A stretch of DNA of 64,000 nt, from the NCBI GenBank assembly GCA_026005175.1, contig BPKO01000002.1, forward strand, positions 94,501 to 158,500. Direction: 5' to 3'. Below the pieces are notes generated by a model. That model made no database searches, was not told where the DNA came from, and was given only the letters and a program-made list of their open reading frames with translations. Shown here in pieces: positions 42,650 through 54,600 of this stretch. The position numbers and the translations under genes were made by a program. The DNA is from Candidatus Tectimicrobiota bacterium. Lineage in GTDB: Bacteria; Tectomicrobia; Entotheonellia; Entotheonellales; Entotheonellaceae. Position 1 is the first letter of the stretch, and each line of letters opens with the position of its first letter.

Positions 42650-44005
42650 CCCCCTCGGCGCGGCTTGCCCACTATCTTCCCCTGCTGCGCACCGTCCAGC
42701 CCATCCGCAGCCGCGGGACGGTGTGCCGGGTGCGCGGCTTGCTCATCGTCGGCCAGGGCCCGGCCGCGGCGCTTGGCGACGTGTGCGAAATCTATCCGCG
42801 CTGCCGCAACGTGCCGGTGCGGGCAGAGGTGGTGGGGTTTGCGCAGCACGAGATCATGCTCATGCCGCTTGGTGAACTGCGCGGCATTCGGCCCGGTAGC
42901 CCCATCCTCCACCGCGGAGAGCGTGCCGCGGTGCCGGTCGGCCTGGCGCTGCAAGGCCGTGTCCTGGATGGCCTGGGACAACCCCTCGACGAACGAGGCC
43001 CGCTGGCAGCCGAGACCACGTACCCCCTGTATGCCCAGCCGCTTCATCCGCTGCGCCGGGCACGCATCAGCGAGCCGCTCGACTTGGGGGTACGGGCCAT
43101 CAACGCCTTGCTCACCTGCGGCAAGGGCCAGCGCCTGGGCATCTTTGCCGGCTCGGGGGTGGGCAAAAGCGCCCTGCTGGGGATGATCGCCCGCGCCACG
43201 CAGGCCGACATCAACGTCATCGCCCTCATCGGCGAGCGCGGCCGGGAGGTGCGAGAGTTCCTGGAACGCGACCTGGGGCCGGCAGGGCAACAGCGCTCCG
43301 TGGTGGTGGTGGCCACCGCCGAGCAGCCCCCCTTGGTGCGGCTGCGGGCGGCGTTTGTCGCCACCGCAATCGCCGAGTTTTTCCGCGACCGCGGCCAGGA
43401 CGTGCTGCTCATGATGGACTCCCTGACGCGGGTGGCCATGGCCCAGCGCGAAATCGGGCTGGCAGTGGGGGAGCCGCCCACCAGCCGCGGCTATACGCCG
43501 TCGGTGTTCACCCTGCTGCCGCAACTGCTCGAGCGCGCCGGCATGGGCGCCGGGCAGGGGAGCATCACCGGCTTGTACACGGTGCTTATTGAAGGCGACG
43601 ACTTCCACGATCCCATCGGAGATGCGGTGCGGGCCACGGTGGACGGGCACCTTCTGCTGTCGCGGGCCCTTGGCAGCCCAGGGCCACTATCCGGCCATCG
43701 ACGTGCCCCTGAGCCTGAGCCGGGTCATGCCCGACATCACCACGGCCGAGCACCAGCGGCTGGCGGCCATGGTGCGCGAGCTGCTCGCCGTCTACCAGGA
43801 CGCCGAAGACTTGCTCCACATCGGGGCCTATGTGCAGGGCAGCAACCGCCGGCTCGACCAGGCCGTGAAAATGATCGACGCGATCCGCAGCTTCCTGCGC
43901 CAGCCCCTTGACGTCAGCGTCTCGCTGGCCGACAGCCTGGCGCAGCTGCGGGCGCTGTGCGCGCCGCTAGAGGGCGAGCAAGCCCAAGGCAGCGGGAGGG
44001 CATAG
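42646..44005 (+). CDS. fliI: FliI flagellar export ATPase, frameshifted as sequenced
   Basis: The F1-beta-like ATPase of the flagellar export gate, normally about 440-450 residues. Walker A is GIFAGSGVGKSALLGM and Walker B DVLLMMDSLTRVAMAQREI; EPPTSRGYTPSVFTLLPQLL is also present. After DGHLLLSRAL the frame breaks. The other frame carries AAQGHYPAIDVPLSLSRVMP, DAEDLLHIGAYVQGSNRRLD and the C-terminal domain. Deleting one T at 43670-43671 restores SRALAAQGHYPAID. As sequenced the C-terminal domain would be lost. Confidence 0.92.
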
Positions 44006-44007
44006 CT

Positions 44008-44445
44008 GTGCGCTTGGCTCGCTTGGCCAGGCTCGTGCAAGTGCGGCATCGTCTTGAGATGCAGGCGCGGCAGGCGCTGCAGCACGCCCACCGCCAGTAC
44101 CAGGCAGAGGCCGCATGCCTGCAGGCGGTGCAGGCGGCCCAGCAGGCCCAGCAGGCCGCCCTGGAGGCCACCTGCGGCACCGCGATGGCCGTGGCCGACC
44201 TGCAGGCCCAGGCTGCCTACTACCAGGAGCTGGTACGCCAGCACGCCCGGCAGCAGGCCGTGGTCCAAGCGCAGGCAGCGCGGGTTGAGCAGCAGCGGGC
44301 AGCCGCGGTGCGCGCCCGGCAGCAGCGCCGCCTGCTCGAAAGCCTCTACACGCGCCGCGCGCAGCAAGTGCGCAGGCAGCAAACCAAGCGCGAACAGGAC
44401 ACGCTCGATTCCCTGGTGCTGCGAGGAAAAGCCTATGGCCGTTAA
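44008..44445 (+). CDS. fliJ: FliJ export chaperone-like protein
   Basis: A 145-residue all-helical protein very rich in Ala, Gln and Arg, with the two long antiparallel coiled-coil helices of FliJ (LVQVRHRLEMQARQALQHAH; ARQQRRLLESLYTRRAQQVR). FliJ works with FliI like the gamma subunit of an ATP synthase. Sequence identity is weak, so the call rests on fold, length and position between fliI and a MotE-like gene. The GTG start at 44008 follows GGGAGGGCATAGCT. Confidence 0.8.
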   Translation: MRLARLARLVQVRHRLEMQARQALQHAHRQYQAEAACLQAVQAAQQAQQAALEATCGTAMAVADLQAQAAYYQELVRQHARQQAVVQAQAARVEQQRAAAVRARQQRRLLESLYTRRAQQVRRQQTKREQDTLDSLVLRGKAYGR

Positions 44446-45067
44446 ACACGCGTCTGCACCAGCCGCCGCGGCAGGGCGTGCGGCCGTTTCCAGGCGGCGC
44501 TGGCTGCCCTATCTCTCCCTGGCGATCCTGGCGGCAGGCACCGTGGGGGGCGCCCTCTCCCTGGGGGCGCTGACCCCGCCCACCGCGGGGCCCAAAGCCT
44601 CTGCTCCCCCAGCGCAGCCCCCACCGGCAGTGGCACTGCTGACCGTGCCCAGCACGGAGATTCCGCTTCTGGCTTCGTTGCAAGAGCGGCAGCAGCGCCT
44701 TGCCGAGCGAGAAAAACACCTGGCCCAGCGGGAAGAAGAAGTGCGGCTCCTGCAACAGCAGCTCGAAGAGCGGCTGTCCCAGCTGGCCTCGATGCGCCAG
44801 GAGCTCTTGGCGCTCCTTGAAGAAAAGGAAGCGTTTGAGGAAAAGCGCTTCGAGCACCTGGTGAAGGTCTACGAAGGCATGAAACCGCAGGAAGCGGCGA
44901 GCCTTCTCGAGCGCTTGCAAGAAGATACGGCCGTGCGGCTGCTCTACCGCATGAAAGAGAAAAAAGCCGGAAGCATTTTGAGCTTCATGAAGCCCGAGCG
45001 AGCAGCAAAGCTCAGCGAACGCCTGGCGTCGCTGCCCAAGCCTGCCCCGGCGACGCCAGAGCAGTAA
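44435..45067 (+). CDS. MotE-like (MgtE N-domain) flagellar protein
   Basis: A 210-residue protein with one N-terminal membrane helix (WLPYLSLAILAAGTVGGALS, ~23-43) and a Pro/Ala linker. A long coiled coil follows (LAEREKHLAQREEEVRLLQQ). The C-terminal domain reads VKVYEGMKPQEAASLLERLQ and AVRLLYRMKEKKAGSILSFM, the MgtE N-terminal-like domain of MotE, a periplasmic chaperone of MotB. The ATG overlaps the end of fliJ. It lies between fliJ and fliK, as in many deltaproteobacterial clusters. Confidence 0.75.
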   Translation: MAVKHASAPAAAAGRAAVSRRRWLPYLSLAILAAGTVGGALSLGALTPPTAGPKASAPPAQPPPAVALLTVPSTEIPLLASLQERQQRLAEREKHLAQREEEVRLLQQQLEERLSQLASMRQELLALLEEKEAFEEKRFEHLVKVYEGMKPQEAASLLERLQEDTAVRLLYRMKEKKAGSILSFMKPERAAKLSERLASLPKPAPATPEQ

Positions 45068-45115
45068 CCCAGGAGAAGGCCGTGCCCGCGGGGGTTCTGA
45101 TTCCCATCTCTGGCC

Positions 45116-46816
45116 GTGACGCCACTTCCAGGGTTGCCCGCTGCGCTCCCGCAAGCGGGAGGACAGCAGGCACCCGAGGCCATGGCGGCTTTTTCCTTCT
45201 TGCTGCTGGCGGCTTCCCAGGAAGGCGCTCCTGCCAGAGCCGCCTGCCTCGCCCGGCTACCCCGGGGTCCGATGGGCTTGTCAGGGCCTCAGGGGTCGGC
45301 CAGCGAAGGCACAGCGAGCGCGCTTCTCCTGCGCCTTGCTGCCGCGCGGGAGAGGGCAGAAACGGCGCCGGAAGGCGACGAGCCTTCCCGAGGCGTGGCC
45401 CACGTGCTGCCGCTGCTCATCCCACTCCTTGCCGCGGTGCCCGCCCCGCCGTGGTCGTCCGCCTCGCCACTGCCGACTGCAGAGGGCGAGGCGCCCGTCA
45501 GGCTTCAGCTTCCCCCTGCGTGGTTTTCAGGGGAAGCAGCCCCTCCTGGCTCTCGCCTCAGGGCAGAAGAAGCCATGGCGTTTGGCCCGCTTTTGGTGGG
45601 GCCCGCGGGGGTGGTGTTGAAGGCATCGCCAGAGGAAGCCCTGCCTTTCTTGGCGTTTTTGGGCAGCTCCGCAGAAGGCGTGTTGCGCTTGGCGCCAGGC
45701 AGTGAGGCGCTGCAAGGCGAAGCCGGCACGGCAGGGCTGCGGTGGCCAGAGGCTGCCCAAGTGCCGCCAGCCCAGGGGGTGGCTGGTGTGAAGGCCGGAA
45801 GCGAAGAAGCCATGGCGTTTGGCCCGCTTTTGGTGGGGCCCGCGGGGGTGGTGTTGAAGGCATCGCCAGAAGAAGCCCTGCCTTCCTTGGCGTTTTTGGG
45901 CAGCTCCGCGGGGGGTGCGTTGCGCCTGGTGTCAGGCAGTGAGGCGCTGCAAGGCGAAGCCGGCACGGCAGGGCTGCGGTGGCCAGAGGCTGCCCAGGTG
46001 CCGCCAGCCCAGGGGGTGGCTGGTGTGAAGGCCGGAAGCGAAGAAGCCATGGCGTTTGGCCCGCTTTTGGTGGGGCCCGCGGGGGTGGTGTTGAAGGCAT
46101 CGCCAGAGGAAGCCCTGCCTTTCTTGGCGTTTTTGGGTAGCTCCGCGGAAGGCGTGTTGCACCTGGTGTCAGCCAGTGAGGCGCTGCAAGGAGAAGCCGG
46201 CACGGCAGGGCTGCGGTGGCCAAGGGGCGGGGAAGGGGCAGGCGGCATCCCCGCAGAGACAAAGCCGGAAGCAGGGGGCCAAGTGAGGTCTGGACTCTAC
46301 CTCCTGGCAGGGGAAAGCCTTTCTTCTGGGGCGTTGCCGGCAGCGACGCCGGCTGCGCCTGAGCCGCCGGTGAGGGCTGCAGAAGGCCGCCTTGCCCCCA
46401 GGGTAGGGGATGAGGGCGGTGCAACCAGCCCGTTGGGACTGCTGCGGCCGCCACAGGCGGTCACCCTGCGGCTTTCTCCGCCACACCTGGGACAGCTTCA
46501 GGTTCAGGTTCGCCTCGACGACGAGCGACTCACCGCCGCCTTTGTCGTGGAGTCGTCTGCGGCGCAGCAGCTGCTGCGCACGCACTTGCCGCTGCTGCAA
46601 CACCTGCTCGACCAGCAAGGCTTTGCCCAGCCGCACCTCGTCCTGTACCAGGCAGCCGGCAACTTTGCCTGGCTGGCCGGCCACGGCTCCGCCAAGCAAG
46701 AGGCCCCATCGTGGGCAGCGTGGCCGCCGGCCACCGGCCATGGCCGGGCAGCATCCGAGCGATCGCGCGGCGCGGTCAGGGCTGACCAAGTGCGGCTTGT
46801 TGATCTCGTCATTTAG
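45116..46816 (+). CDS. fliK: FliK hook-length control protein with tandem repeats
   Basis: A ~566-codon FliK. The C-terminal domain that switches export specificity is recognisable (VTLRLSPPHLGQLQVQVRLD, LTAAFVVESSAAQQLLRTHL, LLQHLLDQQGF). The central part contains about 2.8 copies of a 79-residue repeat (EEAMAFGPLLVGPAGVVLKA and onward). FliK acts as a molecular ruler, so repeat number may set hook length. The start is uncertain. GTG 45082 has a good AGGAGAAGGCC site but is in another frame; one extra C near 45112 would join its MPAGVLIPISG to VTPLPGLPAALPQAGG. The 45116 start given here has no ribosome site of its own. Confidence 0.85.
   Translation: MTPLPGLPAALPQAGGQQAPEAMAAFSFLLLAASQEGAPARAACLARLPRGPMGLSGPQGSASEGTASALLLRLAAARERAETAPEGDEPSRGVAHVLPLLIPLLAAVPAPPWSSASPLPTAEGEAPVRLQLPPAWFSGEAAPPGSRLRAEEAMAFGPLLVGPAGVVLKASPEEALPFLAFLGSSAEGVLRLAPGSEALQGEAGTAGLRWPEAAQVPPAQGVAGVKAGSEEAMAFGPLLVGPAGVVLKASPEEALPSLAFLGSSAGGALRLVSGSEALQGEAGTAGLRWPEAAQVPPAQGVAGVKAGSEEAMAFGPLLVGPAGVVLKASPEEALPFLAFLGSSAEGVLHLVSASEALQGEAGTAGLRWPRGGEGAGGIPAETKPEAGGQVRSGLYLLAGESLSSGALPAATPAAPEPPVRAAEGRLAPRVGDEGGATSPLGLLRPPQAVTLRLSPPHLGQLQVQVRLDDERLTAAFVVESSAAQQLLRTHLPLLQHLLDQQGFAQPHLVLYQAAGNFAWLAGHGSAKQEAPSWAAWPPATGHGRAASERSRGAVRADQVRLVDLVI
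45566..46221 (+). repeat. 237-bp tandem repeat inside fliK
   Basis: The anchor GAAGAAGCCATGG recurs with its ATG at 45575, 45812 and 46049, an exact 237-base (79-codon) period. The first two units are full and the third runs about 180 bases, to 46221. Copies differ at only a few positions, so the duplication is recent or is kept uniform by gene conversion. The period is a multiple of three, so copy changes keep the frame. Confidence 0.9.
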
Positions 46817-46828
46817 AGGAGGTTCGGT

Positions 46829-47491
46829 GTGGAGGTTTCTGCCGTCACTGCGGCGCATACATCTCCAGGGACAGCGAGTGCCCAGCCCCTACAAGCAACG
46901 CAAGAGACCTTTTTGCAGCTGCTCATTGCCCAGCTTGAGCATCAAGATCCGCTCGAGCCCCTGCAAGGAACCGAGTTTACGGCACAGCTGGCGCAGTTCA
47001 CCATGCTCGAACAGCTCGACACCATGCAGGGCACCTTGGACGAGCTTCAGGCCTTGCAGGCCACCGCAGCCAACGTGCAAGCGGCCAGCCTCATCGGCAA
47101 GGAAGTCAGAGCGGCCGGCAATCGCGTGGCGGTGCAGCCCGGCGAGACGGCCTCCCTGCACTATGCCCTGGCCGCCGACAGCGCCAAAGTCACCCTCCAC
47201 ATCTTCAATGCCAGCGGTAACCTGGTACGCACCCTGGAGCAGTTTCAGCAAGCTGCAGGCGAACATACCGTGAGCTGGAACGGCACCGATGCCCAGGGCA
47301 TGCCCCTGCCGGAAGGAGAGTACTTGTTTACGGTCACCGCCGAGGATGCCCAGGGCAACCCGGTGCGGGCCGACACCTTCGTGCAGGGCGTCGTAGAAGG
47401 ACTGGAATTCGCCGGAGAGCGCCCCTTATTGATTGTGGCGGGAAGCCCCGTCGATCTGGCGGCCGTCGTGAGCGTACAACTGGCCGAGTGA
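46829..47491 (+). CDS. flgD: FlgD hook-cap protein
   Basis: A 220-residue FlgD, the scaffold that caps the growing hook. The N-terminal signature is ETFLQLLIAQLEHQDPLEPL then GTEFTAQLAQFTMLEQLDTM. The C-terminal half is the FlgD tudor/Ig-like region (VTLHIFNASGNLVRTLEQFQ, VSWNGTDAQGMPLPEGEYLF). It starts with GTG after AGAGGAGGTTCGGT. Confidence 0.94.
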   Translation: MEVSAVTAAHTSPGTASAQPLQATQETFLQLLIAQLEHQDPLEPLQGTEFTAQLAQFTMLEQLDTMQGTLDELQALQATAANVQAASLIGKEVRAAGNRVAVQPGETASLHYALAADSAKVTLHIFNASGNLVRTLEQFQQAAGEHTVSWNGTDAQGMPLPEGEYLFTVTAEDAQGNPVRADTFVQGVVEGLEFAGERPLLIVAGSPVDLAAVVSVQLAE

Positions 47492-47510: not shown

Positions 47511-48921
47511 ATGAGCTTGCAGAGCGCGTTGTTTACCGGTGTCAGTGGCTTGAACACGTATGCCAATGTGATTTCGATCATCGGCAACAACATCGCCAAC
47601 GTTAACACGCCGGGCTTCAAGCAGAGCCGGGGAAGCTTTTCGGATATCCTGAGCCAGAGCTTTGGCTCCTCAGGCGGCTTGCAGATTGGCCGCGGCGTGC
47701 GCATGAACCGCGTTGACTTTCTTTTTACGCAAGGCTCGTTTCAGACCACGTCGGTCGCCAGCGACTTGGCCATTGACGGCGACGGCTTTTTCATCGTGCG
47801 CGATCCCGACACCAACGCTTTGCTCTACACGCGCACCGGCGACTTTCGTCTCGACCGCGAGGGCAACCTGGTCAATGCGCAAGGGTTCATCCTCCAGGGC
47901 TTTGACGTCGATACCAACGGCAATGCGCTGCCCTTTGTCAAGGATGTGAACGTCAGCGGCCAGGGCCTTTCCTCCCAAAATGACCGATCAGGCAACGATT
48001 AATGTCAACCTCAATGCGGGGGCGGAGGTGTTGCTCGACCCTGGCACCGGCACGCCGCTGGCCTTTGATCCGGCTGATCCAGTAGGAACGTCAAACTTTT
48101 CCACCGCCTTAACGATTTACGACTCCTTTGGCAACGCCCACACGGTGGAGTTTTACTTCCAGAAGACGGCCGACAACACCTGGACATGGATTGCCACCAC
48201 CCGCGCCAGTGACCTTGCGGGGATGAGCGGCTCCAGCCTCGTTACCCTGGCCAAAGGGCAAATGACCTTCACCGACAGCGGCGCGCTCGACACCATCGTT
48301 ACCACCGACCGCTACAACTACGAGGACGGGATGCTGGAGGCTTTGAGCGCGCCCGAACAGGGGGCCAGCGTGGTCTTCAATTTTGCCAAAGGCGCCCAAG
48401 CAGGGCAGACGGTGAGCTTTAACTTTGGCACGCCACGCCGGGTCTGGGACGACGCCACGGGCGCCTTTGTCGACAACGCGGCGGCGCCAGACGGGTTTGA
48501 TGGCACCACGCAGTTTGCCTCCCCCTCGGCGACGCTGTTCCAGTCGCAAAACGGGTTTGGCTCCGGGGTGCTGCAGAGCTTCAGCGTCGACGAGCACGGC
48601 ATCGTGCGCGGCCTGTTTTCCAACGGCCAGACCTTGGCGCTGATGCAAGTGGCGCTGGCCAAATTCCCCAGCCCTAACGGCCTCAACGCCGTAGGGCAGA
48701 ACCTCTTTGCCCAGTCCCAGCTCTCCGGCGATCCCGTGGTATCGGCTCCGGGCACCAGCGGGCTGGGCGTCATTGTCTCTAACGCCCTGGAAATCTCCAA
48801 CGTCGACTTGTCGTCCCAGTTCGTCGAGCTCATCCGCGCCCAGCAGGCCTTCCAGGCCAATGCCCGGGTCATCACCACGGGCAACGACTTGCTCGGCGAG
48901 GTGGTGAACCTCCGCCGCTAA
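47511..48921 (+). CDS. flgE: FlgE hook protein, frameshifted as sequenced
   Basis: The hook subunit, ~469 residues when repaired. The start has SLQSALFTGVSGLNTYANVI and SIIGNNIANVNTPGFKQSRG. The D1 region has SDLAIDGDGFFIVRDP. The first frame ends at 48002. The second frame carries KMTDQATINVNLNAGAEVLL, TIYDSFGNAHTVEFYFQKTA and the C-terminal VELIRAQQAFQANARVITTG. Deleting one T of the TTT at 47968-47970 gives GLPPKMTDQATIN, close to the LPPKAT motif common in FlgE. Confidence 0.93.
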
Positions 48922-49029: not shown

Positions 49030-49552
49030 ATGGCGGCAGAAGCCCCGGTCACTGAGGAAACCCGCAAGCGCGGCATGGGCAAGTTGCTGTTTCTGGCGGT
49101 GAACGTGCTGCTGTTTGTGGCCGGCGCTGGCTTCTTCGTGCTGACCAAGTTCGGCGTGCTCGGCGCCGCGCCCTCGCCTCAGGCCCCTCGACAGCGAGCC
49201 GCCGCCTGCCGCCGCGCCTCCGCCCACCGAAACGCCACAACCTCCCCAGCCAGGCATCATGGTGCGCTTTGATCCCTTCATCGTCAACCTGAGCGGGGAT
49301 CAGGGACGGCGGTACTTGCGGGTGATTTTGCAGGTAGAAGTGCCGAATGACGAGGCGAAAAATGCGGTGACGTCACACATGCCTCAACTGAGAGACCGCC
49401 TGATTTTTCTTTTAAGCAGTAAAAAGTTTTCTGATATTCACAGCATTGATGGAAAGTATCAGCTTCGGGAAGAGATTCTTCGTCATCTCAACGAGGCACT
49501 TGGCAAAGAGATTGTCAAGAAAGTTTACTTTACCGAATTCATTGTGCAATGA
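49030..49552 (+). CDS. fliL: FliL basal-body-associated protein, frameshifted as sequenced
   Basis: FliL is a single-pass inner-membrane protein around the stator. The N-terminal part has ETRKRGMGKLLFLAVNVLLF and a membrane helix. After a Pro-rich linker the other frame reads VRFDPFIVNLSGDQGRRYLR, VILQVEVPNDEAKNAVTSHM and the typical end EALGKEIVKKVYFTEFIVQ. One extra C in the CCCC at 49184-49187 explains the break. The last ~200 bases are distinctly AT-rich compared with everything around. Confidence 0.88.
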
Positions 49553-51713: not shown

Positions 51714-52395
51714 ATGCCCCCTTCTTCCTTTCCCAGCCTCGGCCTCCAGGTGCCGGCGCAGGCGGGCGACTTGGCCGTGCCGCTGCAGATCCTCCTGCTG
51801 CTGACCCTGCTCACCCTGCTGCCGGCGCTGCTTATGGCCATGACCTCGTTTGTGCGCCTCGTCGTGGTCTTTTCCTTGCTGCGGCAGGCGCTTGGGGTGC
51901 AGCAGATGCCACCCAATCAGGTCTTAATTGGCCTGGCCCTGTTTCTCACGTTTTTCATCATGCAGCCGGTTGGAGAGCGCCTCTACCGCCAGGCGCTTCA
52001 GCCGTACTTGGCCCAGCAGCTGACGGCGCCGGCGGCGCTGCAGGCAGCGCTCGTGCCGCTGCGTGACTTCATGCTGCGCCAGACGCGGGAAAAGGATCTG
52101 TGGCTCTTTATCGAGCTCGGCAAGTATGCGCGGCCCCCGCACCCCCGACGACGTGCCCACCGTGGCGCTGATTCCGGCGTTTATCCTGAGCGAGCTGAAA
52201 ACTGCGTTTCAGATTGGGTTCCTGCTGTATTTGCCGTTTCTGGTGCTCGACTTGGTGGTGTCGTCGGTGCTGCTGTCCATGGGCATGCTCATGCTGCCGC
52301 CCGTCCTGGTGTCGCTTCCTTTTAAGCTCATGCTTTTTGTGCTTGTGGACGGCTGGAACCTGATCGTGGGATCCCTGCTGCGCAGTTACCAGTGA
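51714..52395 (+). CDS. fliP: FliP export gate protein, frameshifted as sequenced
   Basis: FliP, FliQ and FliR form the core export gate. The first frame has [40 protein letters not shown] and [19 protein letters not shown]. After KYAR the frame breaks. The second frame has [40 protein letters not shown] and the typical end [20 protein letters not shown]. One extra C in the CCCCC at 52134-52138 explains it; repaired, the protein is about 226 residues. Confidence 0.93.
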
Positions 52396-53523: not shown

Positions 53524-54600
53524 ATGGCAGAGACGGCGCAAGAACGGACCGAAGCGGCTACCCCACGGCGGCGGCAGCGCGCCCGCCAAGAAGGGCAGGT
53601 GGCCAAAAGCCGTGAGATCGCCACGGCCAGCCTGTTCCTTGGCAATTTGCTGCTGCTGGCCTTTGCCGGCGCGACGGTAGGGCGCCGCCTGCAGCAGCTG
53701 GCCACCGAAGCCTTCACGTCCCTTGACCGCCTGCCGGAGACGGCCACCGCGGTGTACGCCTTGCTGCTGCACTACGTGCTGCGCCTCTTGGCCATCCTTG
53801 CCCCTTTCTTGGTGGTCAGCGTGGGGGCAGCCCTGGCCAGCCACCTCCTGCAAAGCGGGCTGGTGTGGGCGCCGCAGGCCCTCGTGCCGCGCCTGGAGCG
53901 GCTCAGTCCCTGGCAAGGGCTGCAGCGGCTGGTGTCCGTGCAGGCCCTGGTCGAGCTGGGCAAAGCCCTGGGCAAAGTCGGCCTGGTGGCTGCCGTGGCC
54001 TATATCACTATCGTCGCCGAAGCCGAACACCTGACGGCTTGGCCCATGCTCGAGCCGCCGGCGCTTGCGGTGCACTTCCAAAAGAGCCTGCTGCGCCTGG
54101 GCACCCGCACCCTGTATCCCATCTTGGGACTCGCCCTGCTCGATTACCTGTGGCAGCGCTGGCAGTACGAGAAGCGCCTGCGCATGACCCGCCAGGAGCT
54201 CAAAGAAGAGCGCAAGGAAGACGAGGGCGATCCGCACGTCAAGGCACGCATCCGCAGCCTGATGCGCACCCTGGCCCGCCGGCGCATGATGGAAGAGGTG
54301 CCCAAGGCCGACGTCGTCATTACCAACCCCACGCACCTTGCGGTGGCCCTGCGCTACGACCGCTACACCATGCCGGCACCCAAAGTGGTGGCCAAGGGGG
54401 CCGGGCTGCTGGCCGAGCGCATCCGCGCCGTCGCGCGCCGGCACGGGGTGCCGGTGGTGGAAAGCCGCGCCGTGGCACAAAGCCTGTACAAGACCGTCGA
54501 CATCGGCCACTACATCCCCGCCTCGCTCTACAAGGCGGTGGCCGAAATTCTGGCCTACGTCTACCGGCTGCGGCCGCTGCGGGCCGCGGGCCTTGCCTAG
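53524..54600 (+). CDS. flhB: FlhB export switch protein
   Basis: A 358-residue FlhB. It opens QERTEAATPRRRQRARQEGQ VAKS, which is the family signature, and has four membrane helices (~35-215). The cytoplasmic domain has the autocleavage motif NPTH at 268-271, where cleavage switches export from rod/hook to filament substrates in concert with FliK. The charged linker (RMTRQELKEERKEDEGDPHV) is conserved. Confidence 0.95.
   Translation: MAETAQERTEAATPRRRQRARQEGQVAKSREIATASLFLGNLLLLAFAGATVGRRLQQLATEAFTSLDRLPETATAVYALLLHYVLRLLAILAPFLVVSVGAALASHLLQSGLVWAPQALVPRLERLSPWQGLQRLVSVQALVELGKALGKVGLVAAVAYITIVAEAEHLTAWPMLEPPALAVHFQKSLLRLGTRTLYPILGLALLDYLWQRWQYEKRLRMTRQELKEERKEDEGDPHVKARIRSLMRTLARRRMMEEVPKADVVITNPTHLAVALRYDRYTMPAPKVVAKGAGLLAERIRAVARRHGVPVVESRAVAQSLYKTVDIGHYIPASLYKAVAEILAYVYRLRPLRAAGLA

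Follow-up and report, generated by a model that had tools for sequence, protein, structure and literature searches.

FliK sets the length of the flagellar hook, a length that has to match both the cell envelope and the way in which flagella bundle. In Salmonella, FliK is exported while the hook is growing; the hook becomes longer with insertions in the N-terminal part of the protein and shorter with deletions there, and the meeting of the C-terminal domain with FlhB triggers the export switch (PMC6972891). A related ruler, YscP of the FliK/YscP family, controls the needle of the Yersinia virulence injectisome. Its repeats of 14, 25 and 46 residues vary in number between strains, giving proteins of 452 or 538 residues, and needle length tracks YscP size (PMC3469391). 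For natural tandem repeats in FliK itself, we found no published report in the literature searched, of which coverage was partial.

Here we describe such a repeat in a FliK encoded in a 64-kb stretch of DNA from a Candidatus Tectimicrobiota bacterium, referred to as the window. The protein resembles Salmonella FliK (PF02120, Flg_hook) in its C-terminal Flg_hook domain, in the adjoining flgD and flgE genes and in a long, length-relevant N-terminal part (PMC6972891). It differs in size, with 566 residues including 2.8 units of 79 residues as compared to 405 in Salmonella, and the paper on the Salmonella FliK domains mentions no repeat (PMC6972891), whereas the window protein has 2.8 units. With length-variable rulers of the YscP type it shares in-frame repeats in the ruler region, although YscP units are shorter, serve a virulence injectisome and have documented strain variation. 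We consider it very probable that the window FliK is an ordinary hook-length ruler whose ruler region has gained length through tandem duplication, in frame, of a 79-residue segment. Such a duplication would have extended the N-terminal and central ruler region to about 2.8 copies of the segment. That the units lengthen the ruler is a sound inference by analogy with the described systems; each of them would make the secreted ruler longer, so that hook growth would stop later, and by the insertion and deletion rule the loss of a unit would shorten the hook.

The fliK gene and its flagellar surroundings

The open reading frame lies on the plus strand at 45116–46816 and encodes 566 residues from a GTG start that is uncertain. 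Its C-terminal Flg_hook (substrate-switch) domain at 46451–46633, residues 446–506, scores 57.3 bits in Pfam against a curated cut-off of 29.8 (E 1.4e-15), and 61.3 bits in the genome search, likewise above the curated cut-off. The reading frame is FliK, because this domain stands in the same frame and the neighbors are flagellar; the same evidence bears out the first-pass annotation, which had named the repeat-bearing gene FliK. Reverse-strand reading frames across the repeat (45505–46248 and 45558–46454) were set aside, since it is in the plus frame that Flg_hook matches; GC3 across the repeat gave no separation between frames. With 566 residues the protein is of unexceptional length, and about 28% of 81 FliK reading frames in one phylum equal or exceed it. 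No clear Shine-Dalgarno sequence was seen before the GTG at 45116, and the head of the gene may possibly contain a further frame break or have another start. In the region 45072–45118, a good Shine-Dalgarno sequence, AGGAG, precedes a GTG at 45082 whose frame differs from that of fliK.

Around fliK we find fliE, fliF, fliG, fliI, a MotE-like reading frame, flgD, flgE, fliL, fliP, fliR, flhB, flhA and flhF. Upstream lie fliE, F, G and I, and downstream fliM, P, R, flhB and flhA; the FliM of this genome was matched in the genome search. The immediate upstream neighbor (44054–45067, plus strand) has an MgtE_N match in its C-terminal part and is MotE-like by inferred name. Directly downstream follow flgD, the hook cap gene (46829–47491, plus), and then flgE, the hook protein gene (47511–48921, plus), which runs over two frames with a break near 47980–48002. 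The gene for the partner of the FliK switch domain, flhB (53524–54600, plus), is intact.

Besides flgE (break region 47930–48020), also fliI (43600–43720), fliL (49030–49300) and fliP (52080–52260) are each split over two frames, and GC3 changes frame there. The splits could mean that the flagellar cluster is decaying and that the repeat has no present function, a view with which the lack of FliM in three genomes of the same family (G001–G003) would agree. We regard such decay as quite unlikely, as most of the remaining flagellar genes have long, unbroken frames (FliF, FliG, FlhA, FlhB, FliR, FlhF and FlgF/G) and the fliI and flgE breaks have protein-family matches on either side, a pattern that single-base errors of sequencing would explain better than decay of long standing. 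Sequencing error is the likely cause of the four breaks because of these two-sided matches and because the fliP break adjoins a run of C; some of the four occur at short homopolymers. If they were real, the bacterium may make no flagellum. In G001–G003, FliK also gave no match above the cut-off. With no FliM match in these three genomes and a large flagellar cluster in that of the window, the family has either lost or gained flagella in some of its members, or the bins are incomplete.

The window's genome encodes a second Flg_hook protein away from the flagellar cluster (L099:3676-4967, minus strand, contig C1), next to a small reading frame whose sequence appears to resemble the FlhB C-terminal domain. 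Two Flg_hook proteins per genome also occur in many of the surveyed genomes.

Structure of the 79-residue array

Tandem Repeats Finder (TRF) places the array at 45566–46222, with a period of 237, 2.8 copies, 95% matches, no indels and a score of 1209, outranking every other tandem array in the window by a wide margin. A repeat finder returned the same registers, with starts at 45566, 45803 and 46040 and a spacing of exactly 237/237. Units 1 (45566–45802) and 2 (45803–46039) each comprise 237 bp or 79 residues on the plus strand and are 95.4% identical. The partial unit 3 (46040–46222, plus; 183 bp, 61 residues) shares 95.6% identity with unit 1 and 94.5% with unit 2, each over 183 bp; its match ends at 46222, which leaves about 2.8 units and not a full three. 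No further copies were seen in the flanks, and in the whole genome the 237-bp unit occurs only in these three places. A 68-bp core is present three times in the array, as compared to a mean of 0 in 100 dinucleotide shuffles. Every copy is in the fliK reading frame, 237 being a multiple of three, and the frame stays open throughout the array, which is N-terminal to the Flg_hook switch domain, in the part of the protein that sets ruler length. The first-pass annotation had thus located the array correctly, and both its exactly spaced 237-base units (TRF, 237/237 in the repeat finder, 94.5–95.6% identity) and its statement that copy changes keep the frame hold.

The array could be the product of an assembler that duplicated or collapsed copies. 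The assembly invites some caution, being incomplete, with rpoB and rpoC not found in it; four genes close to fliK also have frames broken at single bases, in some cases at short homopolymers. Artificial duplication is nevertheless unlikely given that each copy has private substitutions; there is also no indel within the array, its frame is open from end to end, and similar arrays occur in independent genomes. Altogether we judge an assembly artefact to be very improbable, although the number of copies may have been set wrongly.

FliK arrays in other lineages

The window array was absent from every other genome and collection searched. Relatives and genome contigs queried with the whole FliK gave C-terminal matches only, or none, and no close homologue of its N-terminal part was found. 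With FliM as an anchor, only a Syntrophobacterales metagenome-assembled genome matched, and no FliK was among the reading frames listed for 12 kb of that locus. A match in G004 (L007) was rejected as a FliK of the same class, as it gives no alignment to the window FliK; it looks like a second, FliK-like type and is therefore unfit as a control for copy number.

In-frame, near-identical tandem units N-terminal to Flg_hook are nonetheless found elsewhere. We surveyed FliK reading frames from diverse genomes, a non-random sample for which long reading frames were fetched preferentially. The FliK of G192 contains 3.1 units of 121 residues; its congener G231 has 2.4 units of 69 residues that differ from those of G192, and alignment of the two proteins is confined to their C-terminal parts. 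G173 has 3.9 units of 249 bp (83 residues), G052 a unit of 97 residues with a match over 42 residues, and G059 a unit of 46 residues. In the genus of G173, where 20 of 22 genomes have a FliK and full-length open frames span 524–961 residues, six proteins have distinct arrays, and in a seventh unread bases interrupt the sequence. The main periods there, 81, 96, 135, 204 and 249 bp, are each divisible by three. Judged by their units, which are unrelated to the window's in sequence and length, the arrays of G192 and its congener G245, of G231, and of G173 and its congeners are independent of the window array. Six loci of one genus (L102, L166, L169, L173, L179 and L180) encode congeneric FliK proteins with different in-frame arrays and would make a good set to relate hook length to ruler length.

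Age and possible homogenization of the copies

The first-pass annotation took the near-identity of the copies as a sign of recent or ongoing expansion. A pair of species from another lineage weakens this argument. G192 (L110) and G245 (L163), of one genus, both have three copies of the 121-residue unit in the same phase, and their FliK proteins align over 710 residues without gaps at 80% identity. Copies are 93–95% identical within G192, 83–90% within G245 and 83–87% between the species, while the flanks of the array are 92–93% identical between the species. In a tree the copies group by species with a support of 0.999. The simplest reading is that the array probably predates the species split and was homogenized afterwards; that each species triplicated the unit on its own, in the same phase, is possible but less probable. 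The pattern suggests concerted evolution in a ruler gene. As this array apparently predates the split and yet its copies are alike within species, near-identity alone is no proof of recent expansion.

The window copies differ at 14 of the 183 sites common to all three. Copy 2 is the odd one out at six sites, copies 1 and 3 at four each, and dS between copies is 0.09–0.11 and dN 0.03–0.04 (NG86, from few sites). All 14 variable sites fall within 85 bp of the 183, in codons 23–51 (permutation P 0.0002, in a test chosen post hoc); all three copies agree fully over the first 68 bp, so that the ends are alike and the differences lie in the middle. By these counts the array has existed long enough for substitutions to accumulate, and the pattern does not fit a duplication of such recent date that differences between strains would be expected. 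The confinement to the middle fits either recombination that homogenizes the ends or constraint on the ends; recombination between copies may keep their ends alike.

From this one could tentatively propose that the array is old, that its copy number is stable and that gene conversion keeps the copies alike in concerted evolution. The grouping by species in G192 and G245 shows a case in another lineage, and the identical ends with differences in the middle would be expected of it, although the clustering may also reflect constraint on the ends. The view of the first-pass annotation, in which recombination still changes copy number between strains and hence hook length, appears rather unlikely to us. 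It can draw on units that keep the frame, on identical 68-bp tracts that could serve recombination, on the variation of repeat number between strains in YscP (PMC3469391) and on the differing arrays of congeners in other lineages. However, a dS of about 0.1 with private changes in every copy is too much for a novelty at the strain level, G192 and G245 have both retained three copies in the same phase, and the window array is known from a single genome.

The preferred reading of a ruler lengthened by in-frame duplication makes the window array one further example of a known way in which ruler proteins grow. Copy-number variation between strains of its lineage is possible. A broader view would have FliK ruler regions as a general hot spot of in-frame duplication followed by homogenization, with hook length evolving by unit steps and the copy number in the window lineage still changing between strains like a contingency locus; this we find doubtful. 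The likeness of repeat copies is no clock. Repeats of whole in-frame units offer an easy evolutionary path to a longer or shorter ruler, and comparison of the arrays suggests that this path was taken repeatedly and independently in the FliK proteins of unrelated bacteria.
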